From an uncultured bacterium (GTDB lineage Bacteria > Cyanobacteriota > Vampirovibrionia > Obscuribacterales > Obscuribacteraceae): a stretch of 64,000 bases of DNA. The notes beneath the pieces are model-generated. The model saw only the letters and a program-made list of their open reading frames with translations. It had not been told where the DNA came from and ran no database searches. The stretch is taken from positions 1 to 64,000 of the forward strand of contig CAILLX010000016.1 in assembly GCA_903835185.1 (NCBI GenBank). The letters run 5' to 3'. Below are positions 39,701 to 63,308 of the stretch, in pieces. Both the position numbers and the translations under genes were made by a program. Position 1 is the first letter of the stretch. Each line of letters begins with the position of its first letter.

Positions 39701-41166
39701 TCAAGACGTGCTGTTTTATGCCCATCATCAAGCGTAATATTCAAAGTAATCCTTTTGATTGATGTTTTGACAAAATCGTTGTTGACGAGCTCTGAGACTG
39801 TTCGCAGTACAAAAGAACCTACAGGATCGGCAAGATAGTGAAATCTCCCGCTATCCGAGGCACTATGTGCTGAAAAATTGGAAGAGAACATATCTGTACG
39901 CTTGATTGGTTCTATACCGTCGGCTTCAATTACACTTTCTACTGTTGCCACATATGGTCCGTCTGATTGATGAGTAGAATCAATTGCTGACATTGCTGTC
40001 CCGGCGAGAAGATCGGGTGTGAGCTCACTGTGATCTACTACCTGACAGTTGTAGGTGCGTTTGAGCTTCCTGGTGCGATCAGTTACTGTGTAAGTAGCAG
40101 GAATCATGTGGGCTGTACGTCCTAGCTGCCCGCCCAGAGACCAGGGACGGTCGGAGGTGAAAGCTCCGACAATCTGCACTGGCGAAGCCAGCTTAAAAGA
40201 GACGCACAGGCTGGGCAATACTTCATGTATGTATGCTGTTGCCATAGGAAAGTCTATAGCCCCAGCTTGCAAAAACGGGTGACCGAGAGCCAAGACCTTT
40301 TGTCCGAAACGCGCTGTGGCAGTGCCTGTAGCTACGACGTTAAAGTCGCCTGTTGCCAGCATTACACTTATTGCGCCACCAGGACGAATCTCTGGTTGGT
40401 GACCTTGCTTGAGAGAGGGGTCTTGAGCGCCGGCGGCACCGCTGGCTACATTAATGCCGAACGGCTTAAGCCTGTCTTGTAAGAATGTCTCTGCCCCGGG
40501 CGAGAAGCCTGTGAGAGCCAGTGGCGATACAAGTGGTACTAAATGTGGTGTGCTACTGGCGACGTTTTCTTTGCTGATGCCCGAGACAAACCAAGGTTGA
40601 CTTTCCCGCTGGGCAATTCTGTTGACATTGGATTGCTCGGTTACCAGGGCGTCAAGCATGTCGGCTATAGGAGTCACCCCGGCTAGCGGCTCTTTAGAGA
40701 AATCGAACCCGAATGAGACAGCTCCTGCTAACTTGCCGTCTATATAAACTGGGCTTCCGGACATCCCTCTTATTACATTGTTGTTTGCCAGTGCCCCACC
40801 GGACATCTTCACTAAAATGGCATCGCGTCCGTTGAGCACCTTCTTAATTATTCCTATGACACGAACATTGAATCTTTCCACAGTGGTGCCATGAAAGACT
40901 GTCAGTCCATAACCGACCGCTCCCGGCTTGATATCTGCTAGCGGAATATACTGTTCGGCGGCAAGAAACCGGCGAACCAACGCCTGTTGCGATGAGTTAT
41001 TTGCGTTGGCAGATTTGGTGGGAGTAGTGTTAGCCGGTAGGCAAGCTGCCGGCAGCAAAGAGGTGGGTCCTGCAGCTAGTAGGACACAGAAAAAAATTAA
41101 GATGCCACAATAGGCGCAGCCGCCACGCAAACTAAAGGACAGATACTTTAGATAGTTAGTAAACAC
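36751..41166 (-). CDS. S55 (SpoIVB-type) peptidase-domain protein with propeller and Ig-like tail
   Basis: A 1471-residue exported protein with an N-terminal hydrophobic signal. Residues 75-330 carry S55 motifs: KPGAVGYGLTVF, GMSGSPVYIDGK (probable nucleophile S136) and VLALGHPF (H296). A Ser/Pro-rich stretch lies near 660-700. Then come about six repeated blades of the type LYAGTGKIYKID (730-1010), which look like a beta-propeller, a sugar-binding-like segment, and two Ig-like modules around a charged 120-residue linker. The active-site Ser precedes His, the reverse of B. subtilis SpoIVB. Start is GTG with no clear ribosome-binding site. It is probably a periplasmic or surface protease. Confidence 0.82.
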   Translation of the reverse strand: MFTNYLKYLSFSLRGGCAYCGILIFFCVLLAAGPTSLLPAACLPANTTPTKSANANNSSQQALVRRFLAAEQYIPLADIKPGAVGYGLTVFHGTTVERFNVRVIGIIKKVLNGRDAILVKMSGGALANNNVIRGMSGSPVYIDGKLAGAVSFGFDFSKEPLAGVTPIADMLDALVTEQSNVNRIAQRESQPWFVSGISKENVASSTPHLVPLVSPLALTGFSPGAETFLQDRLKPFGINVASGAAGAQDPSLKQGHQPEIRPGGAISVMLATGDFNVVATGTATARFGQKVLALGHPFLQAGAIDFPMATAYIHEVLPSLCVSFKLASPVQIVGAFTSDRPWSLGGQLGRTAHMIPATYTVTDRTRKLKRTYNCQVVDHSELTPDLLAGTAMSAIDSTHQSDGPYVATVESVIEADGIEPIKRTDMFSSNFSAHSASDSGRFHYLADPVGSFVLRTVSELVNNDFVKTSIKRITLNITLDDGHKTARLDKVFLDKQFVAPGESLQVHLLIKPYNGNPRLETMTLMVPLDMPDGQMIIGCASGDDIASVRKRLGIVDPTLDTLKQIRQRILDRGRGDTIELVASLPKQSFIINGTKLSDPPAHWAHLFTSNRSTKGPAVVKSSIRLFQTTDWLIDGSHILSIEVRNPEKALARQAPPEISLPNPDESITITSEAKKALEATKKSSVSSPGSQPTSSAETAEKPAVNPTVVAGTLKDYPHMRPAKIWRQESEEEFRSGKTNNTAVDSWGRLGPGCKDVADKALQSEQRIWSAVCSGGHLWFATADKLWRWSGDHTEPEKVAEFDSVVVPALACDSTGTVFAATAPDGQIWACSNSDAPRKIAKLAEPIITSLCFDNKDNLYAGVCGTGKIYKIDQSGTVTSFFTSSQTHILSLSFSTYDSKIYAGCGDKAVVYAIDLQGRAQAVYQAPDRLATGACRDRTGNLYVATAAQGHLYRITPSGAVQPLASSEAFYKLHYSPSADLVFAGDGEGDITICKEDPTSHQPYFFPLCHTEQEEVLALASDSAGHLYAGTANLASVRSFALAESTDASYESAVRDAEQPASWIALRSWGALNEPLAGLADKLTVSTRTGNSARPDLSWSDWHAAPYQDGSFAITSAPARYLQYRINWLKQPDLPAVEPVKLGRVEVSYLPHNSAPTFTNISLKEDQPLSGKQDITITGSDPDSDNLLLNIDISEDGGKSWKLLSKAIRSKSKAPELSATNKSKKKRQPDISAPEPSVNEKKHKDDSSTEPLKGSVQQDESGKTQGADQQLPSSSNSKAPDKTPSVNLQLPCEGQADNEKKQEPKVSHVRIKELKQLLPAGSNLPDKGTSSEAAGAQEKLTYSFDTTKYKDGDYLVKLTLDDRLSNPEDHLDAVTVRSITVSNKPPVLDSFTFTRAGSISFTVLVKSSYATVANATYRLDDGEPYALAGVTHLAAGTSGQLGVSNLTAGAHKVEIKVTDKAGNSTTKTFNLK

Positions 41167-46910: not shown

Positions 46911-47169
46911 TTTAGCTCAACCGAGCATAGATCTTGCCCGGCGCTTCTTTATTGGTTTGAACGGAAGTAGTGATCAATAATTTAAGATTAGATTTGCTCT
47001 ATACTGCCGATTCTCCTGTACGTTTGGCTAGCCGGTCGTTGTCAAGATGAAACTGTTGGCAGTTCCGCCCGTCCAATCAATCGATCTGCAAATTTGCCAG
47101 GGTGCACAGGCAGGCATGTCAGCAGGTCGTGTTAAAATGACAACCTCACAAGATCTATTTCTGGATGTA

Positions 47170-49179
47170 ATGAAAAACAGCTTCAGGAAAACGACGCCGC
47201 TCAGCATCGCCTTGCTGCTTTTGTTGCAGATGGGTACGGGCTCATGTCCGGCAGCTGGTGCGCAGGGGCTAGCTACTGCTGTGACAGGAGCTGTTGAGAA
47301 GAATGAGCAGCCTGCTGCCAACCTTACTGTCGACGATGTGCGTGTAGAAGGCAACCGTCTTGTTCCTACTGAAGATATTCTCAATGTAGTGAAGACGCAT
47401 CGTGGCGACAAATTTGATCGTGATCAGGTGTTGCAAGATCTCAAGGCTGTCAACGGCATGGGGTATTTTGATGATCGCAACTTGCAGGTTGTCCCGGAGC
47501 TTATAGGCTCAGGCGTATTGCTGAAGATTCGGGTGCAGGAGAATGCTCCTGTGACTCAGTTTGCTTTCCAGGGCAACCAGGCAGTCTCAACAGAAGAGAT
47601 CTCTAAAGTTTTTGCCGATCAGCTGGGCAGGCCGCAAAACTTAAACCAGCTCTCCGGTGCTATTGAAAAGGTCGAACAGGCTTATCACGATCGTGGCTTT
47701 GTGCTGGCGAGAGTTGCTGATGTGAAAGATGATCCTGATGGGAGCATAAGCATCAGCATTAATGAAGGTGTGATCGATAACATTCAGATTATTGGCAACA
47801 AGAAGACAAAGGATTTCATTATCCGGCGCTCGCTTAAGCTCAAGCAAGGTTCTGTCTACAATGAACGTATGCTCACGCAAGATTTGCGTAAACTTTTTGG
47901 CAACGGCTATTTTTCTGACATAAGAAGAAGCCTGGTTCCCTCTCCTACCAACCCTGACAAATACACGCTCAAAGTTGAAGTTGATGAAAAGCGTAGCGGC
48001 TCAGTTGGACTCGGTGGGGGTGTCGACTCTGTTTCGGGACCGTTTGGATCTTTTAGCTGCTCCGATTCTAACTTCAGAGGGCGCGGACAGATTCTCTCTT
48101 TTAACTCTCAAGTGGGAACAGGCCTTTTTAACAACTTAACGAACTCAGTCAATAACGGTGGAAATCAGTTTCTTGCCAACCAGCGCACCTTCAACGTGGC
48201 TGCCACCTGGGTAGAGCCCAATTTGCGCGGTACCAACACATCAATGTCTGTCAGCGGGTTTGGCAACAGCTTCGGTAGTATGCTGGTTGATCAAGCTATG
48301 GAGCGCACGGTTGGTGGCACTGTCTCTTTTAGCCATCCATTGTCTGAGCGCTGGCGCGCTAATCTCGGCTTCACAGGTGAGCAGACGATGCTTTCCGATG
48401 CCAGCAATCTAGGCAGCCTTTTTGGCAATTATTATAACGGCAAGAATGTGCTTGGTTATTTAACTGACAGGGCGATTGCTATGGGACGTGCTGGTGACAT
48501 GTCCTCGGCTAGCGCCATTGCCCAGGGAATCCGTAATAAGCAGCTTCAAGGTGGCACGTTCCTTACTGTCAGTCCATCCCTCACTTATGACACCCGGGAC
48601 AAACCACTTGATCCTACAAAAGGCACTACAGCCAGGTTAACTGCTGGTCCTTCGCTAGGGCTTTCTGGTGCTACTTTTGCCAAGATAGGAGCCAGTGTAA
48701 GCAAGTATGTTCCACTTACTAAAGAGACTACTCTGGCTATGAATGTACAAGGCGGGGAGGCGCTCGGTGGTGCTCCGCAGTTTTCCATGTACCATCTTGG
48801 TGGCTTTAACGGTATGCGCGGTTACAGAAGCTTCTCTGATTTAGGGACCGGTACATCGATGCTGATGGCTACTGCTGAAATCAGGCACAAACTACCGTTT
48901 CCTAAACTTGACAAGTCTAATAAGTTGGCTGGTGTAGTCAATCCTGTGCTCGACAATATAAAGGGAGTAGCCTTTTGTGATGCCGGTCAGGTCGGCGGCA
49001 ACTCTCTTGTCAACAGCTTTTTCCAAAGGGCAGGCGTTGGTGCTTCTGTCGGCTTGGGGTTGCGTATTAATGTACCTATGATCGGTCTGGTTCGTCTCGA
49101 TTATGGTCTGCCGCTGCTCAGTACCATACTTGGCAAGATGACTCCACGCTTTAGTGTCGGCTTTGGCGATAGATATTGA
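47170..49179 (+). CDS. bamA: Omp85/BamA outer-membrane assembly protein
   Basis: Inserts beta-barrel proteins into the outer membrane. After a signal peptide (SIALLLLLQMG...) come three POTRA domains, starting near VDDVRVEGN, FAFQGN and IDNIQIIGN. Three, not five, is the cyanobacterial pattern. The 16-strand barrel contains the GGFNGMRGYRSFSD loop-6 motif and ends FSVGFGDRY. The open frame extends up to 47047. ATG 47170 gives the best signal peptide, but ATG 47116 or 47137 cannot be excluded. It heads the skp, lpxD, lpxC region. Confidence 0.9.
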   Translation: MKNSFRKTTPLSIALLLLLQMGTGSCPAAGAQGLATAVTGAVEKNEQPAANLTVDDVRVEGNRLVPTEDILNVVKTHRGDKFDRDQVLQDLKAVNGMGYFDDRNLQVVPELIGSGVLLKIRVQENAPVTQFAFQGNQAVSTEEISKVFADQLGRPQNLNQLSGAIEKVEQAYHDRGFVLARVADVKDDPDGSISISINEGVIDNIQIIGNKKTKDFIIRRSLKLKQGSVYNERMLTQDLRKLFGNGYFSDIRRSLVPSPTNPDKYTLKVEVDEKRSGSVGLGGGVDSVSGPFGSFSCSDSNFRGRGQILSFNSQVGTGLFNNLTNSVNNGGNQFLANQRTFNVAATWVEPNLRGTNTSMSVSGFGNSFGSMLVDQAMERTVGGTVSFSHPLSERWRANLGFTGEQTMLSDASNLGSLFGNYYNGKNVLGYLTDRAIAMGRAGDMSSASAIAQGIRNKQLQGGTFLTVSPSLTYDTRDKPLDPTKGTTARLTAGPSLGLSGATFAKIGASVSKYVPLTKETTLAMNVQGGEALGGAPQFSMYHLGGFNGMRGYRSFSDLGTGTSMLMATAEIRHKLPFPKLDKSNKLAGVVNPVLDNIKGVAFCDAGQVGGNSLVNSFFQRAGVGASVGLGLRINVPMIGLVRLDYGLPLLSTILGKMTPRFSVGFGDRY

Positions 49180-49515
49180 TAGCGCAGTGTTGGCGCCTCC
49201 AGATTGTTTGAGAAGTTGGCGACCCGGTAGCTGGCAGGCGGTGGACTACTTCAATGTGGCTTGCAGGCAATGTCTCATTTGGATTGGATGGCGAGGTTGA
49301 GCTGTTTACTCCTTAAGAGAATTAAACGGAAGGCTCTTCGAGCTGTTTGCTGCCAGGAACCTGCTTTACTGCCCAAGCAAACGGGTCAACGGCTCCAGTT
49401 GTTCTGTTTTAACTCTCTTAATGGAACTGCCTCTGCCTAGTTGCTGGGACGACAATGTTGTAAACTGAGCCGGTTGGCGAATAGTCATGACTCGTTCAAG
49501 TTTTTGGAGGAGAGG
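49180..49515. other. Structured intergenic region between bamA and skp
   Basis: A 336-bp gap without a gene. Bases 49313-49326 pair with 49408-49421 (14 positions, one mismatch) to enclose about 80 nt, inside which GTTTGCT (49345-49351) pairs with AGCAAAC (49376-49382) and GCTC/GAGC forms a small UUC-type hairpin at 49333-49343. The nested pairs suggest a folded RNA, either an independent RNA or the skp leader. No known RNA family is recognised. Confidence 0.4.
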
Positions 49516-50025
49516 ATGCAGTACTCTCGTAAGTTTTTCTCGTTGCTAGCCGGAAGTCTTTTTGTGGTTTCCACGGCAGCTCCTGTCAATGCGCAAGTAA
49601 TTGCCAAGGCACCAGTGGTGGGTGTCGTGGATCGCGACAAGATCATCACCAGTTATAACAAAGCACAATCAGCAGCCGAAGAGCTCAAGAGATCGGAAGA
49701 CAAAGTTCAGAGGCTGATTGAAGAAAGCAATAAGCAGTACGAAGAAGCCAAAACGGCCAAGAAGCCTCCGGCTGAGTTGGAAGGGCTGCAAAAGCGTCTG
49801 CAGGTCCAGATTGACGATGAAGTAAAGAAGGTTCAGGGCAGAGCACAGTCTCTCGAAACACAGCTGGAAAACGATATTGATTCTGCTATTAAGGCAGAAG
49901 CAGCCACACGCAAGGTTGATGTCGTTATCTTGAAGCAGGCTGTTTTGTTAGGCGGCACTGATCTGACTGATGCAGTAGTGAAGCGCCTGGTCGCGCAAGC
50001 TGCTAGCAAGTCAGCTACCAAGTAG
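49516..50025 (+). CDS. skp: OmpH/Skp family periplasmic chaperone
   Basis: A periplasmic holdase for outer-membrane proteins. A signal peptide ends near PVNAQ, then the OmpH start VVGVVDRDKIITSYNKAQ, long charged helices (tentacles) rich in Lys, Glu and Gln, and the closing segment VDVVILKQAVLLGGTDLTDAVVKRL. The length of 169 is normal. ATG 49516 is chosen for the GGAGG site five bases upstream; the frame opens earlier at 49441. Its position after bamA and before lpxD is classical. Confidence 0.88.
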   Translation: MQYSRKFFSLLAGSLFVVSTAAPVNAQVIAKAPVVGVVDRDKIITSYNKAQSAAEELKRSEDKVQRLIEESNKQYEEAKTAKKPPAELEGLQKRLQVQIDDEVKKVQGRAQSLETQLENDIDSAIKAEAATRKVDVVILKQAVLLGGTDLTDAVVKRLVAQAASKSATK

Positions 50026-50037
50026 ACAAAAATAAAG

Positions 50038-50080
50038 AATAGCTGTCTGAGCTCACCGGCTTAGGCAGCTATTTTAATTT
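50038..50080 (+). terminator. Strong intrinsic terminator after skp
   Basis: A 15-bp stem (50038-50052 with 50059-50073), with two G-U pairs and a 6-nt loop, is followed by TTAATTT. It starts 13 bp after the skp stop and separates skp from lpxD-lpxC. Confidence 0.88.
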
Positions 50081-50149
50081 GAAACAGATGAGGATAAGCT
50101 GCCCGCGAGCTGTCCAGTTTTGTTCAGGCAAGCTTAAGAAGGAGACATC

Positions 50150-51277
50150 ATGATGAAGCTCCCGAAAGAGTTGACTCTCGCAGAGATTGCTGTCATTGCC
50201 GGTGGTCAGGTCAAAGGTCCTGCTGACACCAAAGTCGCATCAGTGGCGCTTGACCCATTCGCAGCCGGTGTAAACGAGCTGGCAATTCTTTTTGATCCTA
50301 AGCTGTTAAGACGTATATCTGAGTGTAAGGCTGGTGCTGTGGTGGTGCCTGCTGGAGCCAAGACTGATCTGCCAAGGGTAGAGGTGGAGCGCCCGCTTCT
50401 TGCACTGGCGAGAATGTTGAAAGTAATTCAGCCGAAGCGCTTTCTGCCACCTCCTGGTGTTCATCCAACTGCTGTTGTCGATCCTACCTCCCAGCTCGGA
50501 GCCGATGTGGCAATTGGACCTTATGTAGTGATTGGTCCTCAAAGCCGTATTGGCGCTGGCACAGTGATTATGGCTGGTTGCAGCATAGGCGGTAGAGTTG
50601 TTATTGGCGAAAACTGTTTGTTGCACCCGTCATGCCTGATTGCTGATTATGTTCAGATTGGCTCCCGGGTCATAATGCAGCAGGGAGTGAATATAGGTGG
50701 AGACGGCTTTGGTTATGTAACTGAGCGTCCAAGCAATATAGAGCGGCGACTGGCTGGCATTTTAGAAGATTCGAATGAGTCTAATCCACTTGTAAAAATA
50801 CCGCAAATAGGCACTGTCATTGTCGAGGATGATGTGGAGTTTGGCTGCTATACAACTGTAGATCGTGCCACCATGGGTGCTACCATTATAGGACGCGGCT
50901 CCAAGTTTGACAATCTGGTCATGGTCGCGCACAATGTCAGAATAGGACACGAAGTAATTATGGTTGCTCATGCCGGTGTGGCAGGATCGAGCGTTATTGG
51001 TGATCGGGCTGTCATAGCCGGGTATGCTGCTATTAAGGATCACGTCAAGATTGGTGCTGACGCTATTGTGGAAGCTTGTTCAGGTGTAATGCGTGATGTG
51101 CCAGCAGGAGAGGTGGTCGGTGGCATTCCTTCTGTACCTGCTCGCGAGTACTTTACCAATACTGCGCATATACGCAGGTTGCCTCAGATGAGTGATGAAC
51201 TGAAGTCTCTCAAGAAAAGGGTAGCTGAGCTCGAGCGCCTGCTAACCGGCAGCTGCTCTGGAGCCGAAGGTGACTAA
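50150..51277 (+). CDS. lpxD: UDP-3-O-acylglucosamine N-acyltransferase
   Basis: Adds the N-linked acyl chain in lipid A synthesis. An N-terminal uridine-binding domain (1-100) leads into a left-handed beta-helix of hexapeptide repeats (about 103-330), with catalytic H261 in VAHNVRIGH, matching H239 of E. coli, and NIGGDGFGY. A C-terminal helix (SLKKRVAELERLL) completes the trimer. The length of 375 is slightly long. Start ATG has AAGGAG five bases upstream. It overlaps lpxC by eight bases. Confidence 0.95.
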   Translation: MMKLPKELTLAEIAVIAGGQVKGPADTKVASVALDPFAAGVNELAILFDPKLLRRISECKAGAVVVPAGAKTDLPRVEVERPLLALARMLKVIQPKRFLPPPGVHPTAVVDPTSQLGADVAIGPYVVIGPQSRIGAGTVIMAGCSIGGRVVIGENCLLHPSCLIADYVQIGSRVIMQQGVNIGGDGFGYVTERPSNIERRLAGILEDSNESNPLVKIPQIGTVIVEDDVEFGCYTTVDRATMGATIIGRGSKFDNLVMVAHNVRIGHEVIMVAHAGVAGSSVIGDRAVIAGYAAIKDHVKIGADAIVEACSGVMRDVPAGEVVGGIPSVPAREYFTNTAHIRRLPQMSDELKSLKKRVAELERLLTGSCSGAEGD

Positions 51278-52082
51278 TTTGGCATCTGGCGAACAGTCTG
51301 TACTGTTTTACACAGGGCGCGGTGTTACTTCGCGTTCAGATGTGGCAGTGGAAGTAAGTCAGACCAGCTCTGGCAGCGGGATAGTATTTGTAGTTACACA
51401 AGGACAGCTCACTGTCAAGATACCTGCTCAGGCACAGTATGTTGTCAGCACTTTACGCAATGTCGTTTTAGGCTTGCTGCCTGTGCGCCTCTGCCTGGTT
51501 GAACATTTCCTGGCCGCAGCTAGCCTTTATGGGCTGAACAATCTGCTGGTTACAGTGGATGGGATGGAGTTGCCGCTTGGCGATGGCAGCGCTTCATTTT
51601 GGCTCGATGCTTTTGCTGCAGCTGGTTGGAAGCAGAGCGTTATTGAACCAACAATTGAGCTTGACACGCCGATTGTTTGTAGAAACGGAGACCGGATGTT
51701 GCTAGCTGTGCCGGATGATAAGTTTTCAGTGAGCTATCACATGGACTGGGATCATCCTCTGATTGGCAAGTGTTGGCAATCATGGGAGACCAGCAGTGGA
51801 GCCGACGCAATTGCTGGAGCCAGGACGTTTGGCAAGCTCTCAGAAAATAAGCTGCTAGGGCTTGAAAATGAAGTGGTTAGTCTTACAGCAGACGGATTTA
51901 CACAGGAGCTTCGCTGGCGGGATGAGCCGGTACGCCATAAGCTGCTTGATCTCATAGGCGACCTTACTTTGTCTGGTTGCAATCCGCTAGCATTTAAGGC
52001 CAGGTTTGTCAGCATAAAGGCAGGACACGAACTTGATGTACAGATGGCCAGGCAGCTTTCTGAAATTATAAAGCACTCCTGA
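51270..52082 (+). CDS. lpxC: UDP-3-O-acyl-N-acetylglucosamine deacetylase
   Basis: The committed zinc deacetylase of lipid A synthesis. E78/H79 (VEHF), the LPLGDGSA motif, ARTFG, H223/D227 (RHKLLDLIGDL) and H253 (AGHEL) match the catalytic and zinc residues. At 270 residues it is shorter than the E. coli enzyme (305). Start GTG at 51270 has GGAG six bases upstream and overlaps the lpxD stop, so the two are translationally coupled. fabZ and lpxA, which often follow, are absent here. Confidence 0.93.
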   Translation: MTNLASGEQSVLFYTGRGVTSRSDVAVEVSQTSSGSGIVFVVTQGQLTVKIPAQAQYVVSTLRNVVLGLLPVRLCLVEHFLAAASLYGLNNLLVTVDGMELPLGDGSASFWLDAFAAAGWKQSVIEPTIELDTPIVCRNGDRMLLAVPDDKFSVSYHMDWDHPLIGKCWQSWETSSGADAIAGARTFGKLSENKLLGLENEVVSLTADGFTQELRWRDEPVRHKLLDLIGDLTLSGCNPLAFKARFVSIKAGHELDVQMARQLSEIIKHS

Positions 52083-52389: not shown

Positions 52390-55300
52390 ATGGTTGGTAA
52401 GCACTTACGTTTAGTAGCCATAATATTGGCGGTGATATTTTTCGCCAATATGCATGTATGCCTAGCTCAGGCACTTGCCCAAGGCGTGCAGAGTATACCG
52501 AACCATCACCACCATGCTGCTCAAGGTACTGCTAACCAGCTATCAGGAAATGAGCAATCTTCTCACCTGCACAGTTTTAACCAAATTAGCCATAATCACA
52601 GAAGAAGCATTAATCTGGACCTGACTTCAGTCAATGCCACGATTCAACCTAACCATTTGACCAATCCAGTTAGCATACTGGTCGGCAATTCGCCTGTGGC
52701 AGTCACACAATCGTCGCTGCTTACACCGGCTCAAATGATTGCAGTCCACCAGATTGTAAGGACCGGACAGCAAACCATACAATTGTCTGCCCAGGGAAAC
52801 GCCGTCGGTGGCAGCTTTGTAATTGGATCACACTTAGCCAACTCGCTTAACACATTGGTTATTCCAGCCGGTGTCACTGCCATAGACAGGCTGACCAGTT
52901 CATCGGCACTTAACTTAACCGGCAATCTGACCAACGCCGGCTATTTGTATGTTGTCTCGACAAATCCTGCTTTTACTACGGCAACAATTAGTGCAGCTAA
53001 CATCATCAATCAGCAAGGTGCTTTGTTGTCTTCTGTACTTCCTGCCGGTGGCTTACCTGGAATCACCAGCGCGGTCGCAAATCTGAGCTTAAACCTCAAC
53101 GCAATTAACAACATCGTCAACGCCGGCATCATCAGGAGCGCCGGCGCTCTTACAATTACTGCTGGAGGCTCAATTATCAATGCGCTGCCTGCAGGTGTCA
53201 CTGGAGTAGCACCAATTTTGCAAGCGCTGAACAATCTCACGTTGATATCAGGTGCTGGCAACATTGTTAACTCAGGAGCAATCAGTTCATTTTCTGCCAA
53301 TATAAACATTGCTTCGCAGGCTGCTCAAAACATCGTAATTAATAATGTTGGTGGGACTCTGGCTGCACTGCACGGAGCGATTAATCTGCGGGATATGCTC
53401 ACAGCAGAGCTAGCCGACATTAGCATCAACGGAGGGAATTTATCGGCGGAAGCCCTGAATTTATTTGGGCGCAGTATGAATGTCAACGTGGGTGAAATAA
53501 ACGGCGCCCTCAATATGACAGGCTCAACAGCTCATGTGACAGCAGCTACCCCAAATTTAATATTGGGGAACATGTGTTTAACTGGCGACCCAACTTATTA
53601 CAACACAGGTGGAGCCGTCACTATTGCCAGCGCACTTAATTATTCCGGTCAGAATCTAGCAATTGTGGCTAACACAAATATCCTCACTGCCTCAGGTGTC
53701 GGTGCCATTAACACAAGTTCGAGCAGTGCTAATGGAGGCAACATTACACTTATTGCTGGTGCCTCGTTTAGTACGAGTGGCAGTACCGGCAATCAGGGCC
53801 CGAATACAACATCAACATTGACCTTAAGTAATGGCTCCTCAACCGGTGGCTATATAGATCTCACTGGTGGCACCGGCAACGGAACCCCTGGTGGTACTCC
53901 CATTACATCATTGACATCGCGAAGTACACAAACCAACGGTACTGGTGGCAACATAAACCTGGTGTCCTTTGCTGGCACTGGCACAAACACTGGTGCAATT
54001 GTTTTGCCCACATCCAGTACTATCACAACCGGAGGTAACGGCTCAGGCACAAACGGGAATGTGCTTATCCTGTCCGGACGGACCAGTGCCACCGGTTCAG
54101 ATACTGCCATCATAACTGGCGCGATTGATATCAGCGGTGGCAAAAGCAGTACGGGAACTATAAAAATTCAGAATGCCACTCCTGCGACCGGCGCAGCGGG
54201 GATGACAATCACCAATGGGGCCGTGAACGGAGCCTTTTACACACAGGCAGGGCAGCTTGGCTCCATCACCACTGGTGCAATAACGTCAGGTGGAGCAGAT
54301 GTGACTTTAGCCGGTGGAAGCTATTCAACAGCAGGCTCTATTACAACTGCAAGCTCGACATCATCAGGTGGCTCAGTGCTAGTTTTTACAAACAACGGTG
54401 TATCAACAGCAGCTATCGATACTTCATCCACAGGCGGAGGCACAGGTGGTTCAGCCGTAATCTTAACAGGTAACAGCGGGAATGCTGCTACTCTGACTGT
54501 CGGGCAAATTAACACATCCGGAGCTAGTGGAGGGTTGGTGGAGCTGGTCAACTCTGCAGCTAATACTGCAAGTATTGACTTAACAGTTGGCAGCACAATT
54601 ACAACTGACGCAACGGGACTTAATGGTATTGCTGGTTCAGTCGCTCTGGTTGCCTCTGGTGCAATAAGTGCAAGCAATGCCATTAGTGCTCAAGCTACTG
54701 CCAATTCGTCAAGCACGCAAGCCATGGGTGGGAGTATCTTTATTTCCAGCGGCGGAACTGGTTCTACCGCAATTACTGCCGGTACCATCAATACATCAGC
54801 AAGTAATAATGGCTCAGGTGATAAAGCCGGCAACATTATCTTGTTGTCTGCGACAGCCTCTTCAGGCAACAATCCATCAAACATTACAGCTTCCAGCTCT
54901 AATTTTACACAAACTGGTGGTACTGCCGGCATGTACCTTGTATATGGTTTGTCTGGCGCATCGTCTACATTGCCTACCAGCTTAAATGTAACCCCAACGG
55001 CATCTATTAATATTCGACCAGGAGGATACCAGGCAGCATCAAGCTCGTATATTGCATTGACAATAAACACAGGAGGGGACACCCAATTGGTGGCACCGAT
55101 AAATATTGGTGCCGGTGGGACATCATTGTATCTTTCAACAATAAGCCAGGCATCTGGTGTTGAGAGCGTAAGTATAGTGCTTGCTGGTGGACTTACAACA
55201 AATGGCGTCATAACTGTTGCTGCACGCAACGTTGGAATATATACGAAGGGCATAGTGACCATTGGCGGAGCACTAAGCTTGTCGTCCCCATTGAGTTTGA

Positions 55301-58300
55301 CAGTTGCTGATCTCTCCGGCAATGGAGTTGCCGGACCATACAACGTGACACTCAATGCGGGTGGCAGTGTGGATATTCTTGGGAACATGAGCACATACAG
55401 CTCTGGTAATGCGGGTGCAGTGACACTAACGGCAGGCTCCGGCATTTCTACTGGCTATATTATGTCGTATACCGGTAGGGGTAGTGGCGGTGCAGTGACA
55501 CTAACGGCAGGTTCCAGCATTTCTACTGGTTATATTAACTCGGCTTCCACTAGGGGTAGTGGCGGTGCAGTGACAGTAACGGCAGGCTCCGGCATTTCTA
55601 CAGGTTATATTCAATCGTATACCAATAGTGGTAGTGGCGGTGCAGTGACAGTAACGGCAGGCTCCATCATTTCTACTGGCTCTATTGATTCGTATTCAGG
55701 TAGTGGTAATGGGGGTGCAGTGACAGTAACGGCAGGCTCCGGCATTTCTACAGGTTATATTCAAGCGTATACCGATAGTGGTAATGGGGGTGCAGTGACA
55801 GTAATGGCAGGCTCCGGCATTGTTACTGGTATTATTGACTCGGATTCCGGTAGTGGTAATGGGGCTGCAGTGACACTAACGGCAGGCTCCGGCATTTCTA
55901 CTGGTTATATTTACTCGGAGTCCAGTAATAGTGGTAATGGGGGTGCAGTGGCACTAACGGCAGGCTCCGGCATTTCTACTGGTAATATTTTCTCGTATGG
56001 TACTACTGTCGGAGGAAGCGTTGAATTAGTTAGTTTGCAAGGCAGTATAGCAATTGGTGGGGGTGTGTTCACATACTCGAATGCAACCATTGTGGGCGAC
56101 ATATCTGGGTCTGTGGCATTAGAAGCATTCGGCACAATTGCTGTGGGTGGCATCACCACGTATACCAGTGGATCATCATCCTTGGCTGGTAATGTTTTTG
56201 TTTCTTCCGGTGCGACTTCAGGACTTGCTGTTTCTACCGGTCCTATCGATACAAGTGCTGCAACAGGTAGTACAGTTGGTCAAATATTTTTGGGTGCTAA
56301 TGTTTCAGGCACTAATGGGCCCCAATCTGCTGGGAATTCCAATATATCCTTTACTAAGTTAAGCTTAAAGACAGTGCCTACACCCACAAACGCCTATTTA
56401 TTCTATACCTTCAGTCCTTCGTCGATCACGTCAGACACAACGATAACCGTAACACCAAGTTCTGTAACCATATTGCCTGGCATTTATATTGGCGTTGGCA
56501 GTTTAGCAACTCCAGTAACGTTGACGCTGGCTCTAGGAGGAGACAGTCGAACATTAGTGCCGATAGCCAGCTCGGGTGGCATTTATATATCAAGCTTTAC
56601 TGCTAACAATCCAGGAGGTGGAGCCCAAAACAACGGCTATAGTGTGTCTCTTGTTAGTGGGACAACAAGCGGAATTAGCTTAAGTGGAAGCATAAGCACC
56701 AACCCTTACAGTACAGGTACTGCCGGCAATGTATATTTGGCATCGATAGGAACAGGCTCAATAAGTCAATCATCCGGTTCAATCTCCGGATGTGCGCTCA
56801 GTCTATTTACAACTGGTGGCAATATTGGTGCCAATGGTAGTCCAATTCAAACTTCTGCAGGGACATTATCAGTGGCTACAACTGGATCTGGCAACGTGTA
56901 TATTGCTGACAGTAGTAACACAGTGGTTAATGTGGCTGAAGCCGGTTTGTTATCTGGAACACTTAGCCTGAGTGTAGCTGGAAATATGGTTGTGTCCGGT
57001 TTGCTTGCAGGTTATACGATTAACCTTTCCTGGGGTACTGGTGCCCTTGGTTCTTTGGTTACACCATTTCAAATTGGTGCCGTTAATTTATCAGTCTCTA
57101 CCACGTCAGCTAATGTGTACCTTAAATGTTTAAATGCAACTGCTACTTCAACAATTAGCACTTCTACAATTGGTGGCAGTTTCTTTGTCTTAGGGAGTAG
57201 CAATATCAATGTTACAGGAAGTATATCGACTACTGGTGGTGGCAACATAACGCTCACTGCCGCCACGATCAATGTCAATTCTGGAGGTGGAGTGTCAGCC
57301 TCTGGCACGACAGCACTTAATGCCGCCACCCTTGCTATCTATAGCGGAGCTACCGACATTGGCAGCTCCTGCACGGTGGACACTACTGCGAGCAGCATCT
57401 CATCTGCGTCACGCAACAGCGTCGCACTTACCGATTCGGCCAGTACTGTTGCACTTACGTCTGTGTCCACTGCTTCTGGCAAGGTCTTCCAGCTAGCAGA
57501 CGGCTCAGGAACGATCAATGTTAATGGAGGTATCTCGGGTGCAGGCAACACAACGCTCACTGCCTCTACCATTAATGTCAATGCTACAGCAGTCACTGCC
57601 AGTGGTACTACCACATTTAATGCCAGTGAGTTGTTTATCTCCAGTTCTGCTACTGGTGATATTGGCAGTAGCAGCAACTTTGTCCACACCAATGCTGTCA
57701 CCATTTCATCAAACTCCAATTTTAACGTCTACCTTATAGATACAGCTACTAACACCACAATTAGTGCTTTATCTACTGCCTTATCCAAAGCATTTCAACT
57801 AAGTGACAACTCAGGCACAATCGACATAGGCGGGGGTATTTCAGGTGCCGGCAGCGTAATACTTAGTGGAACAGCTATAAATGTCAATGCTGTGATTGTG
57901 TTGACAACTGGCACTTTGGCACTTAATGCCACCACGCTTACTATTTCGCATGACATAACCGTCAATGACGGGATTACATTAACGACTACTGGCACAGGTA
58001 CCATGTCGGGGACTGGGATACTAATATCAACCGGGTCTTTGTCGCTCAATGCCGGTACAGGTACAGTTGCTGTAAACACAGATGTTGCAACCTTGAATGT
58101 GAATGCAAGGGGTTCTGTGCAAGTCACACAAGGTACAACAGCACTAACACTTGGAACAATAGCAGGCACCCCATCATCGCTAACAATCAATGCAGGAGGC
58201 TCCATAGGTTTAACAAGTTCGGTTAACATAGGGGGCGGTTCAGTAAATCTGACGAGCGGCAGTGCTCAGAATATAGACACGAGTAGTTACACGCTGACGG

Positions 58301-61300
58301 CAAACGGTGGTATCACACTTTGTGTGAGCGGTGGCGGACAGATTTCCGGCTTGCTTTCAACAACTGGCGTCCTGACATTGACAACCGGCAGCCAAGCAGT
58401 GACCATTGCATCTGCAACAGGTATAGATGATGGTGGCAGCATAACGCTACAAGTCCAGCCAAGCGCCTTGACGATTATTACGTCGAATACAGGTGTGTCA
58501 GCAATTACAACATCTGGATCTGGTCCGGTAAGTTTTGGCTCAGCAGCATTGCAGCTGAGCGCACTGTCGGGATCAATAGCTATTTTGGACGACATAACTG
58601 CCAACGGCGGCATTACACTAATAACAGCAGGTTCCGGGACCATAACAGGAGGTACGTTATTCTCAACTGGCTTACTTTCGCTAAATGCCGGAGTTGGGGC
58701 AATTAGTGTAAGCAGTAATGTCTCAACCTTAAACGTGCATTCAAACGGTTCTGTTCAGTTGATCCAAGGGAGTGCTACTTTAAATATAGCTTCAGTGGCA
58801 GGGACACCGTCATCCTTAAGTATTACGGCTGACGGCTCGATTACAATGGCTAGCACAATTACAGTCGGCTCACTAAGCTTTACTGCTGCAAACATTTCAA
58901 TGTCCGGTGGCACAATGACTGCCGGCTCAGTTAATTTACATACCCAAGCGTCAATTAGTTGCGTCGACACTGGCATTTCCATTGTCGGAGGCACAATTAC
59001 TGCGGGTTCCATCAATCTACTCACAACAAACGCACCAATTGTCTTAGGCAATGTAACAGCTAGTTCATCTCTGCTGGCTACATCTGGTGCAATTAGCATA
59101 GTTGCCAATGGTGCGCACAATGGCACAGTCAGCATAGGCAGTGGTAGCAGTCCCGGGAGTGGTACTACAATCACAGCAACAGGCAATATTGTTATTGCAG
59201 GAGAAGCAGGAGTAAATATAAACAATGGGACGCAAGGCAACGGAACCGTTTCAATTCATGCAGGCTCCTTCGTTGATCCATCCTATAATCCAGGCAGCAA
59301 CCCTGTTGCTGCAAATACAGTAGCTACAAATGGTGTTGTGGTTATTACAAGTTATTATGCCGACAGTACGGACGGTAAGTTTGCAGATTCACAATATGGT
59401 ACAGGCGATTTGAATTTTGGTTCTAACATAGCAATTACTGCAATAGGAGGAGCGACAATAAATGGTGTTGATGGCAGCCCGGTACCAGGCAATGTGAGTA
59501 TGGGGAGCGGACATGACATTAATATGACAGGCAGTCCGACTAATATTTATGCTTACGGAGGCGACGTATTGATTGGTGCTGCCGAGAGTATTGGTTTGGG
59601 GACTTCCACTGTGTTATCGTTTGCGAAACATGATGACAATACAGGTTCATCAACAATCATAGGAGGGAATGTTGCAATTATTTCGGATAGTCCTGGGGTA
59701 AATGTTGCACAAGTGCTATCGAATTTATATCACACAGGTGCTGAATATAATGAAGTACTTGTTCCATCGTATGACACAACAGGTACTATCGATAATCCTG
59801 ACACACACCTAGTAGGTGTAGTCTATAGTAGTGTTAGGCTGAACGGTGTGTTGGGCGATCCAAGCAGCAGATTGGATTTGCTTACAGATAAGAACTACAA
59901 AGGCTTAACAGACAGGGTAAAAGGGCTTCTTTATATAAGTTCGGGAACACAAGACCCAAGTTCGTTGAGCTTAAGTAATGCTGGTTTCGGTGCGCAGCAA
60001 GGGCAGCACCCTAATCTACCACCAGCTCCACCGCCGGTGCCGCCTTCTGGTGGGACATCTACAGGTGGTGTATTAACCATCAGCAATACCACGAGTGTGA
60101 CTGTACCTTTTGTAAATCTCTCAAGCAGCACAACAGTTGAGTCCAATAACAACACTACATTAGCTGGACCAAGGAATATAGCAACTCTTGCAGCATTATC
60201 AAATATTATTGACCATGACTGGCCTTTAGGAGGACAAGTCACGAAAATTAGCTTACATGGAGAAGCCTTACTGCCGCAGTCAGATGCAGATGGTAATAGT
60301 AGTGCTGGCAAGAATTACACTAAAGCTATTGAAGAGACAATAGATGAAGGTGGATCTACAGGCAACAAGTTACCGAATGCTTTGGGATTACTAAACGCTG
60401 CAAAAGGCACTGAGGTGGGGCGTTCTAATACTTCCAGCAATCTCATTCACACAGATGGCTCAGCTAATCAAAGAGGCGAGTCACTTGGAGGTATTGTGCA
60501 GGTAGGTGTGATGCATCATGATTTTGTTTTGTTTACACGTCCCAATCAGCTAATGACTGGCTTAAGTAATTGCAATAACAACGATGGGCTTGTAATTACA
60601 GGAATTCCAGGCACTGTAGTGAGTAATGATAAAGGGTATGTTGTCTTGCATTCTGGAAGGTTGCTCGTTGACACAGGTTCTAAAGGCTTTGTGCTGTGCA
60701 CTTCCTCAACAAAGATTATGATTGGTTGTCAGGCAACAGTTATTATCGACACACAACCAGGCAAATCAGTGCTGGTAATGTCGCTGGCTGGCAAACCGGA
60801 TGCTTTGACTACTGTCAGTACAGGGCAAGGAGAAGAGATTTCGCTAAAACCAGGCGAGGAGTTGTTGGTAGGGCAGCACATAGAGAAGATAGCTTTCTCG
60901 TTGGCGAGTTATGATCACCATCAGGCAAGTATTGCCAGTGTTTCAGTCAGCGTGGGCGGCGCTCAAGCGCGGGTTCTCAATCATGTGTTCCCGGCTATCT
61001 CTTTGAAGACTGAACAACATTATCGTTCAAGCATGCTGAATCGCTTGAACACTCTGGCAGTTAAGCAGGTTTCTGCACGTACTGGTGGAAGCACTGCAGC
61101 CAGAATCCTGTCGGATACCAATACGCAGTTTCAACTTGTCAAACCAAACGTTATTAGTATTACAAAGGGTAAGATCTTTATTGATACGCCAGAAGACATT
61201 GTGGTCGACAGTTTGCTCGGACAAGCTGTTGCGCTCAAAGGAGCCTGTGTTGCAGTAGATGTTCAGGCAGGTCAAATGCGTATTCAGGCTCTTGCTGGTC

Positions 61301-61641
61301 CTGGACTTGTCTTTGCTGTTGCCGGCAACCGCAAAATTGCGCTTCCTCCTGGTCATGAAGTTGTAATCAGCGATAGCAAAACTTCTGACGTTTTGCCAAC
61401 AGACGGTGTCGGAAGAAGGCGACTATTCGAATGTGTCGTGAACAATCGGTTGGACTTGGTCTTTGATGATTTTTCAATAGTTTCATTTATTAAGAACGCT
61501 TCTCATCTTGCAGCTATCAGACAGCCAATTTGTTCATATGACCGGTCATTGCAACAGCAGCTTTTGAAATGTGCAGCCGTTGTCCAGCAAGTCACAGCAT
61601 ACAAAGGCCCATACAGCGCTTTTGTAGAGGGTCATCAATGA
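52390..61641 (+). CDS. Giant filamentous-hemagglutinin-like surface protein with FecR-like C-terminal modules
   Basis: A 3083-residue exported protein. The signal peptide ends near CLAQALAQ, and a His-rich stretch follows (eight His between 39 and 70). Residues about 75-2530 are Gly/Ser/Thr/Asn-rich short beta strands (SINVGG-, TLTAGS-type), predicting a very long beta-solenoid like hemagglutinin adhesins. An 8-copy 25-residue repeat covers about 1009-1209. A Pro-rich hinge (about 2540-2556) leads to two FecR-like beta modules (about 2707-2835 and 2917-2994). No canonical TPS domain or autotransporter barrel was seen. Probably an adhesin or surface fibre. Base use appears more AT-rich than in the neighbours. 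Confidence 0.82.
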   Translation: MVGKHLRLVAIILAVIFFANMHVCLAQALAQGVQSIPNHHHHAAQGTANQLSGNEQSSHLHSFNQISHNHRRSINLDLTSVNATIQPNHLTNPVSILVGNSPVAVTQSSLLTPAQMIAVHQIVRTGQQTIQLSAQGNAVGGSFVIGSHLANSLNTLVIPAGVTAIDRLTSSSALNLTGNLTNAGYLYVVSTNPAFTTATISAANIINQQGALLSSVLPAGGLPGITSAVANLSLNLNAINNIVNAGIIRSAGALTITAGGSIINALPAGVTGVAPILQALNNLTLISGAGNIVNSGAISSFSANINIASQAAQNIVINNVGGTLAALHGAINLRDMLTAELADISINGGNLSAEALNLFGRSMNVNVGEINGALNMTGSTAHVTAATPNLILGNMCLTGDPTYYNTGGAVTIASALNYSGQNLAIVANTNILTASGVGAINTSSSSANGGNITLIAGASFSTSGSTGNQGPNTTSTLTLSNGSSTGGYIDLTGGTGNGTPGGTPITSLTSRSTQTNGTGGNINLVSFAGTGTNTGAIVLPTSSTITTGGNGSGTNGNVLILSGRTSATGSDTAIITGAIDISGGKSSTGTIKIQNATPATGAAGMTITNGAVNGAFYTQAGQLGSITTGAITSGGADVTLAGGSYSTAGSITTASSTSSGGSVLVFTNNGVSTAAIDTSSTGGGTGGSAVILTGNSGNAATLTVGQINTSGASGGLVELVNSAANTASIDLTVGSTITTDATGLNGIAGSVALVASGAISASNAISAQATANSSSTQAMGGSIFISSGGTGSTAITAGTINTSASNNGSGDKAGNIILLSATASSGNNPSNITASSSNFTQTGGTAGMYLVYGLSGASSTLPTSLNVTPTASINIRPGGYQAASSSYIALTINTGGDTQLVAPINIGAGGTSLYLSTISQASGVESVSIVLAGGLTTNGVITVAARNVGIYTKGIVTIGGALSLSSPLSLTVADLSGNGVAGPYNVTLNAGGSVDILGNMSTYSSGNAGAVTLTAGSGISTGYIMSYTGRGSGGAVTLTAGSSISTGYINSASTRGSGGAVTVTAGSGISTGYIQSYTNSGSGGAVTVTAGSIISTGSIDSYSGSGNGGAVTVTAGSGISTGYIQAYTDSGNGGAVTVMAGSGIVTGIIDSDSGSGNGAAVTLTAGSGISTGYIYSESSNSGNGGAVALTAGSGISTGNIFSYGTTVGGSVELVSLQGSIAIGGGVFTYSNATIVGDISGSVALEAFGTIAVGGITTYTSGSSSLAGNVFVSSGATSGLAVSTGPIDTSAATGSTVGQIFLGANVSGTNGPQSAGNSNISFTKLSLKTVPTPTNAYLFYTFSPSSITSDTTITVTPSSVTILPGIYIGVGSLATPVTLTLALGGDSRTLVPIASSGGIYISSFTANNPGGGAQNNGYSVSLVSGTTSGISLSGSISTNPYSTGTAGNVYLASIGTGSISQSSGSISGCALSLFTTGGNIGANGSPIQTSAGTLSVATTGSGNVYIADSSNTVVNVAEAGLLSGTLSLSVAGNMVVSGLLAGYTINLSWGTGALGSLVTPFQIGAVNLSVSTTSANVYLKCLNATATSTISTSTIGGSFFVLGSSNINVTGSISTTGGGNITLTAATINVNSGGGVSASGTTALNAATLAIYSGATDIGSSCTVDTTASSISSASRNSVALTDSASTVALTSVSTASGKVFQLADGSGTINVNGGISGAGNTTLTASTINVNATAVTASGTTTFNASELFISSSATGDIGSSSNFVHTNAVTISSNSNFNVYLIDTATNTTISALSTALSKAFQLSDNSGTIDIGGGISGAGSVILSGTAINVNAVIVLTTGTLALNATTLTISHDITVNDGITLTTTGTGTMSGTGILISTGSLSLNAGTGTVAVNTDVATLNVNARGSVQVTQGTTALTLGTIAGTPSSLTINAGGSIGLTSSVNIGGGSVNLTSGSAQNIDTSSYTLTANGGITLCVSGGGQISGLLSTTGVLTLTTGSQAVTIASATGIDDGGSITLQVQPSALTIITSNTGVSAITTSGSGPVSFGSAALQLSALSGSIAILDDITANGGITLITAGSGTITGGTLFSTGLLSLNAGVGAISVSSNVSTLNVHSNGSVQLIQGSATLNIASVAGTPSSLSITADGSITMASTITVGSLSFTAANISMSGGTMTAGSVNLHTQASISCVDTGISIVGGTITAGSINLLTTNAPIVLGNVTASSSLLATSGAISIVANGAHNGTVSIGSGSSPGSGTTITATGNIVIAGEAGVNINNGTQGNGTVSIHAGSFVDPSYNPGSNPVAANTVATNGVVVITSYYADSTDGKFADSQYGTGDLNFGSNIAITAIGGATINGVDGSPVPGNVSMGSGHDINMTGSPTNIYAYGGDVLIGAAESIGLGTSTVLSFAKHDDNTGSSTIIGGNVAIISDSPGVNVAQVLSNLYHTGAEYNEVLVPSYDTTGTIDNPDTHLVGVVYSSVRLNGVLGDPSSRLDLLTDKNYKGLTDRVKGLLYISSGTQDPSSLSLSNAGFGAQQGQHPNLPPAPPPVPPSGGTSTGGVLTISNTTSVTVPFVNLSSSTTVESNNNTTLAGPRNIATLAALSNIIDHDWPLGGQVTKISLHGEALLPQSDADGNSSAGKNYTKAIEETIDEGGSTGNKLPNALGLLNAAKGTEVGRSNTSSNLIHTDGSANQRGESLGGIVQVGVMHHDFVLFTRPNQLMTGLSNCNNNDGLVITGIPGTVVSNDKGYVVLHSGRLLVDTGSKGFVLCTSSTKIMIGCQATVIIDTQPGKSVLVMSLAGKPDALTTVSTGQGEEISLKPGEELLVGQHIEKIAFSLASYDHHQASIASVSVSVGGAQARVLNHVFPAISLKTEQHYRSSMLNRLNTLAVKQVSARTGGSTAARILSDTNTQFQLVKPNVISITKGKIFIDTPEDIVVDSLLGQAVALKGACVAVDVQAGQMRIQALAGPGLVFAVAGNRKIALPPGHEVVISDSKTSDVLPTDGVGRRRLFECVVNNRLDLVFDDFSIVSFIKNASHLAAIRQPICSYDRSLQQQLLKCAAVVQQVTAYKGPYSAFVEGHQ
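55414..56016 (+). repeat. 75-bp tandem repeat array inside the surface-protein gene
   Basis: Eight in-frame units start at 55414, 55489, 55564, 55639, 55714, 55789, 55864 and 55942. All are 75 bp except the seventh, which is 78 bp. Each encodes a 25-residue unit of the form GGAVTLTAGSGISTGYI plus a variable Ser/Tyr-rich end. The first 17 residues are nearly constant and the last eight vary. Confidence 0.95.
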
Positions 61642-61820: not shown

Positions 61821-63308
61821 ATGACTATCCTGACTGGAGTTCCACTTAAGAGTGTTCTTTGTTTGTTGGCAACTGCACTGGTGTCCGGCGGCAGTGCTTG
61901 CCTGGCTAGCGAGGTGGTATCGGCTGCGAATGAGTCGCAGGGGGTTAGTCTGACCATCTATAACCAGAATTTCGGATTAGTGCGCGATGTTCGCCAGGTG
62001 GAGCTGACAGAAGGAAGAAATCTGCTTCAGTTTCAAGATGTGGCAGCACAGATTGATCCGACAACGGTAAGTTTTTCTTCTCTTACTGCACCAAATGCAG
62101 TGACGGTTCGTGAGCAGAATTATCAATACGATCTTATCAACCCTGAGACTATACTCAGCAAATCAATAGGCAAAAACGCCAAGTTCCGCCGTCTTACAGC
62201 CTCCGGACAGATTGAGGAGCTTTCAGGAGTGCTGCTCAATGCACCGCAAGTATCTGTTGCTGACACTGCGGGCAATGTTTCCGAACGCACACAAGGTTTG
62301 GTTCTCAAGACAGCTTCCGGTGTTGTGCTTAACCCGGCAGGTGATATCGAGCTTGCTGAGATCCCCGCTGGACTGGTATCCAAACCATCGCTAGTGTGGA
62401 AGCTGGATGTGAGTAAGGGTGGGCGGCATAAGACCGAAATCTCTTATCAAACTGGCGGACTCAACTGGCGTTGTGACTATGTGACCGTCTTAAATGCTGA
62501 CGATACTAAGATGGACCTGACCTCCTGGGTGACTCTGGACAATAAGAGCGGGGCAACCTATAAGGATGCTGCTCTTAAGCTTCTTGCCGGTGATGTTCAC
62601 CGCATTGTTCCCAGACCACACCTAATGAGTGCTATGCGAATGGCTTGTGCGCCAGGAGGTGCAGAACCGCAGTTTACTGAAAAGGCGTTTGCCGAATATC
62701 ACCTTTACACTCTGGCCGGCAAAACGAATGTAAATAACAATGAGACTAAACAGATGACCTTGTTTGCTGCCGACAACGTGCCGACAAGAAAGCTGTTTAT
62801 CTTTGAACCCGAGGCGTCAAATTATGTCTGGGGCGACTGGTTACCGCCCAACCGGGACAGCAACAAAGTTGCTGTTAAGCTGGAACTCGAGAATAAACAA
62901 GCCAATCATCTGGGGTTGCCGATGCCTAAAGGTAAGGTTCGTGTATACAAGCACGATGATGATGGTTCGCTACAGTTTATCGGTGAAGATATGATAGACC
63001 ATACTCCCCGGGACGAAAAGTTGCGCATATATATTGGCGATGCTTTTGACCTGGTTGGCGAGCATAAGCAGGTCAATATGCAACGGGTTTCTGATCGAGT
63101 GCAACGTTTCTCTTACGAGATAAGCTTGCGCAATCACAAAGACAATGATGTGACTATTACAGCCGTAGAACACTCCTGGGGACAGTGGAAAATTCTTAAC
63201 TCCAGCCAGACGTACACAAAGAAGGACTCAAAGACTTTTGAGTTTGCTGTGACTGTTCCAGCTCGCGGTGAGGGAAAGGTCACTTATGATATTGAAGTGC
63301 GGAACTGA
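61821..63308 (+). CDS. DUF4139 domain-containing secreted protein
   Basis: A signal peptide ends near ACLASE. The body matches DUF4139 proteins: VSLTIYNQNFGLVRDVRQVEL near the start, the YQTGGLNWRCDY segment, LDNKSGATYKDAALKLLAGDV, LGLPMPKGKVRVYK, and the closing beta-rich domain with a WGQWKI stretch. Such proteins are exported, with unknown function. Start ATG has AAGGAG seven bases upstream. It follows the giant surface protein by 179 bp on the same strand and converges with the last gene, leaving three bases between stops. Confidence 0.85.
   Translation: MTILTGVPLKSVLCLLATALVSGGSACLASEVVSAANESQGVSLTIYNQNFGLVRDVRQVELTEGRNLLQFQDVAAQIDPTTVSFSSLTAPNAVTVREQNYQYDLINPETILSKSIGKNAKFRRLTASGQIEELSGVLLNAPQVSVADTAGNVSERTQGLVLKTASGVVLNPAGDIELAEIPAGLVSKPSLVWKLDVSKGGRHKTEISYQTGGLNWRCDYVTVLNADDTKMDLTSWVTLDNKSGATYKDAALKLLAGDVHRIVPRPHLMSAMRMACAPGGAEPQFTEKAFAEYHLYTLAGKTNVNNNETKQMTLFAADNVPTRKLFIFEPEASNYVWGDWLPPNRDSNKVAVKLELENKQANHLGLPMPKGKVRVYKHDDDGSLQFIGEDMIDHTPRDEKLRIYIGDAFDLVGEHKQVNMQRVSDRVQRFSYEISLRNHKDNDVTITAVEHSWGQWKILNSSQTYTKKDSKTFEFAVTVPARGEGKVTYDIEVRN

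Follow-up and report, generated by a model that had tools for sequence, protein, structure and literature searches.

How a giant fibre-like protein is exported and anchored, when it ends in two FecR-like modules and displays neither a TPS domain nor an autotransporter barrel, is the question raised by a gene at 52390–61641 (+) of the window, the window being the whole stretch of 64,000 nucleotides that was analyzed. The source genome is a draft of 4.35 Mb in 243 contigs and 85% complete. The frame, closed by stops at both ends, encodes a giant beta-solenoid protein of 3083 aa, which begins with a Sec-type signal peptide, MVGKHLRLVAIILAVIFFANMHVCLA, of about 26 residues (52390–52467, +), read by eye as cleavable-looking and matched by equivalent signal sequences in the paralogues. 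It is followed by a conserved N-terminal domain (residues ~56–414; 52555–53631, +), with a predicted beta-helix fold and no Pfam family, and by a variable region (53632–60006, +) of low-complexity, beta-solenoid-like sequence, which has no Pfam match and is taken from its sequence to be the fibre. A tandem array of 7.9 copies of a 75-bp unit (25 aa) lies within this solenoid (55404–55998, +). A Pro-rich hinge, PNLPPAPPPVPP (60007–60051, +; core ~60010–60045), recognized from the sequence, precedes FecR-like module 1 (60493–60894, +; from hhalign and the AF2 strands of model residues 14–147) and FecR-like module 2 (61099–61371, +; from hhalign with shuffle controls and Foldseek of the whole C-terminal model), and the conserved C-terminal tail of module 2 (61372–61638, +) exhibits in alignments A1 and A3 the pattern DFS...LxxLR...K.AA...VT...G.Y, with strands and then helices. 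The long solenoid frame, open for 3083 codons, and the Pro hinge, found upstream of both modules, had been proposed in a sequence-only reading and both were borne out. No part of the protein showed a meaningful match to a Pfam or NCBIfam family, and promoter and terminator scans were not usefully better than shuffles.

FecR was not called in the 3083-aa protein by the sequence HMMs of Pfam and NCBIfam, and PF04773 matched one of the 33 homologues (E=0.049), so tests of remote homology were utilized. The C-terminal 380 residues were found to contain two copies of one module, with module 1 aligning to module 2 at P=1.9e-13 in hhalign. Against a FecR set made of phylum proteins gathered with PF04773, the module-2 profile (A3, 33 homologues) reached a probability of 91.5%, P=8.6e-7 and a score of 48.6, and module 1 reached 73.8%, P=2.9e-5 and 35.8, where the best scores of 60 column shuffles were 18.7 (module 2) and 16.5 (module 1) and the reversed module-2 profile scored 19.6. 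The A3 profile also matched a bona fide cyanobacterial FecR protein (E=5e-7), itself recognized by PF04773 at 1.2e-6. The AlphaFold2 model of residues 2689–3083 (pLDDT 85.6, pTM 0.84) gave as its sole convincing PDB matches BDI_1681, a putative anti-sigma factor (4m0n/4m0h), and PupR (6ovk), with probability 1.00 and E from 3e-5 to 1e-3; the TM-scores are low, partly because the query has two modules and the targets one. In this model a short helical tail comes after the beta strands, and Pfam gave no STN match. The modules are thus FecR-like in fold and by distant homology, though below Pfam detection, and what had been read from the letters as two FecR-like modules was confirmed both by profile-profile comparison and by a confident structural model, whose best matches are periplasmic domains of FecR-family anti-sigma proteins. 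FecR domains, which that reading placed normally in small sensor proteins, are not restricted to these, as FecR-domain proteins of ~1155–1160 aa occur elsewhere in the class. In PupR the FecR-type region is a periplasmic domain that binds protein (PMC7186176). Among close paralogues dN is 0.16–0.19 and dS 0.60–0.96 in the C-domain, from which it follows that this domain is kept as protein under purifying selection. A search of PDB sequences with the C-domain profile returned mainly designed Ig proteins, which were judged spurious, and a viral structure search with the C-domain gave no match.

The window gene had been framed as a single odd protein, and this framing is to be replaced by that of a family which numbers dozens of paralogues in each of many genomes of the order. 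A one-sequence search returned 38 matches in the own genome, and the A3 profile returned 56, of which about 38 are the C-terminal module proper, ending open frames. The distance from the end of the A3 profile to the stop codon has a median of 6 aa and is at most 50 aa in 64 of 67 distinct genes. Across the order, the C-terminal module was present in 49 of the 53 genomes of Ca. Obscuribacterales by profile search, and A3 gave one weak case in the 385 other genomes of the phylum sample. The N-domain (~340 aa) has about 31 copies in the own genome by the A4 profile and is present in 40/53 genomes of the order; identities to the window copy range from 33 to 63% in the A4 alignment, and in the bacterial genome scan all record titles among the A4 matches listed were Candidatus Obscuribacterales or Melainabacteria MAGs. 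Both domains occur together in 40 of the 53 genomes, the C-domain alone in nine, the N-domain alone in none and neither in four. The counts of the two domains per genome are correlated (Spearman 0.85, some counts being lower bounds), a correlation to which genome expansion could also contribute by raising both together. Because nine genomes have the C-domain and no detected N-domain, anchoring fibres is not the only role of the tail.

Within the own genome, 19 open frames of 1283 to 7648 codons carry both domains, and many other cases end at contig ends. Four stop-bounded N-domain frames of the own genome were observed without the C-domain (L101, L108, L112 and L117; C85, C208, C187, C238-826 aa), and these are perhaps frameshifted or truncated draft copies. 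The common plan of the family is a signal peptide, the N-terminal beta-helix domain, a variable solenoid, usually a Pro-rich hinge and the FecR-like tail, which commonly comprises two modules and a short helical end and stops at the C-terminus; some members have one recognizable module only. Within the sampled phylum the family is lineage-specific to Ca. Obscuribacterales, an order of cyanobacterial relatives that do not photosynthesize, and it is large, with dozens of members per genome, and apparently so far undescribed, as no account of these giant proteins was found in the open-access literature. The hinge is enriched just ahead of the C-domain: in 22 of the 28 own-genome proteins (3.4 expected), the most Pro-rich 20-mer lies no more than 250 aa before that domain. 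A few members have a weak hinge or none. Pairs of cysteines of CxxC type were seen in some Pro-rich hinges (PPCTNCQPP, CPDC and CPGC; L030, L032, L037, L038 and L100); C-x(1,2)-C motifs of the hinge were given no weight, because they are also found elsewhere in the proteins.

The largest member is an open frame of 25,007 codons in genome G021 (C2:174645-249666; L202, L206), with the two-module C-domain at C2:174658-175194 and the signal peptide and N-domain starting at 249,666; its coordinates fit one frame, the 75 kb between the two ends are known from coordinates only, and the assembly has about 10 contigs and is 97% complete. A frame of 15,075 codons in G011 also has both the N- and the C-domain. 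Frames of 12,500–15,500 codons were observed in G011, G021 and G440.

At the other extreme, small secreted proteins consist of a signal sequence, a linker and one or two FecR-like modules only, and they occur also in genomes without a detected N-domain. Such module-only proteins, including those where no N-domain was detected, point to a possible origin of the tail as a small envelope protein, with fusion to fibres coming later. Small secreted FecR-like proteins of three genomes (L141, L142 and L148), some with long poly-Pro linkers, adjoin a large multi-pass membrane protein, one copy of which matches PMT_2, a GT-C glycosyltransferase family, and TPR proteins were seen near small stand-alone copies. 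Conserved partner genes of these stand-alone proteins were considered and set aside, as these neighbors do not suffice for a claim.

The N-domain gave a confident AF2 model (pLDDT 90.0, pTM 0.87) with a beta-helix fold and no significant Foldseek match in the PDB; the Foldseek list held only weak matches of a generic beta-helix kind, among them many TPS domains, and a PDB sequence search with the N-domain found no match. That the N-domain is itself a TPS domain was ruled out by the Pfam HMM (PF05860 without a match in 28 N-domain homologues) and by hhalign (0.5%), although it may be distantly related to the TPS domain in fold. The TPS domain was not found in the 53 genomes of the order, by a search that detects it above threshold in 36 of 117 genomes from the phylum and so is seen to work. 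TpsB of the ShlB type gave no match in the own genome and marginal matches inside Omp85 frames in 3 of 53 genomes; as the ShlB search had no positive control match, this absence rests also on the Omp85 search, in which nearly all of the 45 positive genomes showed exactly one Omp85 and two showed two partial matches. An autotransporter beta-barrel is absent from the C-terminal model, Pfam detected no barrel, and the families of the T9SS C-terminal sorting domain were not found in the 3083-aa protein by Pfam or NCBIfam. The absence of a TPS domain and of a barrel, as read earlier, therefore stands. The uncommon route of export or anchoring proposed with it is well motivated by the lineage-specific architecture, the coupling of N- and C-domain and the lack of TpsB or a second Omp85, and the route itself is one that we infer.

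The giant gene is preceded in the window by outer-membrane biogenesis genes in the order bamA-skp-lpxD-lpxC (47047–52082, all +), namely BamA with POTRA repeats and Omp85 (47047–49179), the sole Omp85 found in the own genome, Skp/OmpH (49441-50025), LpxD (50150-51277) and LpxC (51270-52082), and is followed by a DUF4139/DUF4140-like protein (61821–63308, +). The position next to bamA does not appear to be conserved, as the listed bamA and N-domain matches of relatives lie apart. Further upstream, a protein of 1471 aa (36751-41166, -) displayed weak matches to SpoIVB peptidase S55, a beta-propeller (Reg_prop/SGL-like) and Big_13.

The new N-domain and the FecR-like tail probably mark the export and surface-holding of giant proteins. 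From the facts of family, hinge, selection and export, the most economical reading has the protein exported by Sec, led to surface display by the N-domain and retained in the periplasm by the FecR-like tail, which follows the Pro hinge; this reading is preferred tentatively, as one that falls somewhat short of probable. Sec would take the chain across the inner membrane, and the N-domain would guide it to the outer membrane and across by a route other than TPS, the pore being BamA, the sole detected Omp85, or some unknown channel. Outside the cell the solenoid would then fold into a long fibre, the Pro hinge would span the outer membrane within the channel, and the FecR-like tail, still folded, would remain in the periplasm and retain the protein as a plug or anchor. 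PupR offers a precedent for a FecR-type fold as a periplasmic protein-binding module (PMC7186176), and the tail would act, with a different fold, like the C-terminal anchor that HxuA and HMW1 are described as holding in the periplasm (PMC5422565). Put forward with more reserve is the wider possibility of a lineage-specific display of megadalton fibres, in which a new N-terminal domain for secretion and a FecR-like tail for retention would serve dozens of substrates per genome, and BamA or an undescribed outer-membrane channel would replace TpsB.

Known T9SS sorting domains are far smaller than ~180–390 aa, and this size bears on the idea that the FecR-like tail is instead a C-terminal sorting or export signal for an unknown outer-membrane translocon, by a logic like that of T9SS, with the N-domain merely capping the solenoid. 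In favor of this idea, the tail forms the very end of the protein in nearly all genes, its terminal motif is strongly conserved, it is common to dozens of otherwise unlike proteins, and some genomes have it without the N-domain; yet at ~180–390 aa it far exceeds a T9SS sorting domain, it resembles a periplasmic protein-binding domain (PMC7186176), the stand-alone proteins consist almost wholly of it, and the lack of any N-only genome fits a joint role of both ends, all of which leaves the sorting signal unlikely.

The tail might also be a tip displayed outside the cell, for binding a ligand, for adhesion or for docking fibre to fibre, with the N-end holding the protein at the membrane. A pair of globular modules that follow a flexible Pro hinge would suit such a tip, and stand-alone secreted copies with poly-Pro linkers agree with this. 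The terminal motif is nevertheless kept across paralogues, where adhesive tips usually diversify, and the characterized relatives of the fold work in the periplasm, so that an outside tip is considered quite doubtful. An extracellular location is typical of beta-solenoid proteins this large, and the frames of 15,000–25,000 codons would give fibres far longer than the width of the periplasm; both points make it improbable that the protein remains wholly within the periplasm or cell envelope, as a fibre that serves structure or scaffolding, despite the periplasmic location of the FecR-type region of PupR (PMC7186176) and the searches that found neither TpsB in the own genome nor a TPS domain or a second Omp85. 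FecR-type signaling, in which the fibre senses contact and the modules relay it to a sigma factor, draws on the fold relation to anti-sigma periplasmic domains and is very improbable, given the lack of an anti-sigma cytoplasmic domain, the signal peptide in place of an N-in anchor and the finding that the scanned genes of the window include neither an ECF sigma factor nor a TonB receptor.

Many genomes of the order spend a large part of their coding capacity on giant envelope proteins, some of them among the largest predicted in bacteria, and do so without a detectable TPS domain or TpsB, the means by which other members of the phylum export comparable proteins. The two shared end domains define the family, point to a common route of export and anchoring and offer separable handles on it.

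With the FecR/PupR anti-sigma regulators (PF04773; 4m0n, 6ovk) the giant proteins share the all-beta FecR-type module, whereas they lack the N-terminal cytoplasmic anti-sigma domain (by Pfam and NCBIfam) and the inner-membrane anchor, and usually have two tandem modules and a helical tail, which end a solenoid. The FecR-domain proteins of the same phylum (L070, L158 and L166), some above 1100 aa, likewise have a FecR domain but one that Pfam finds, unlike the tail of the giant proteins. The TPS adhesins HMW1 and HxuA are alike in their signal peptide, N-terminal beta-helix domain, very large beta-helical fibre and dedicated C-terminal end, whereas the N-domain of the giant proteins is not a TPS domain, a ShlB partner is essentially absent from the order, and the tail is FecR-like where that of HMW1 and HxuA is a short disulfide loop.
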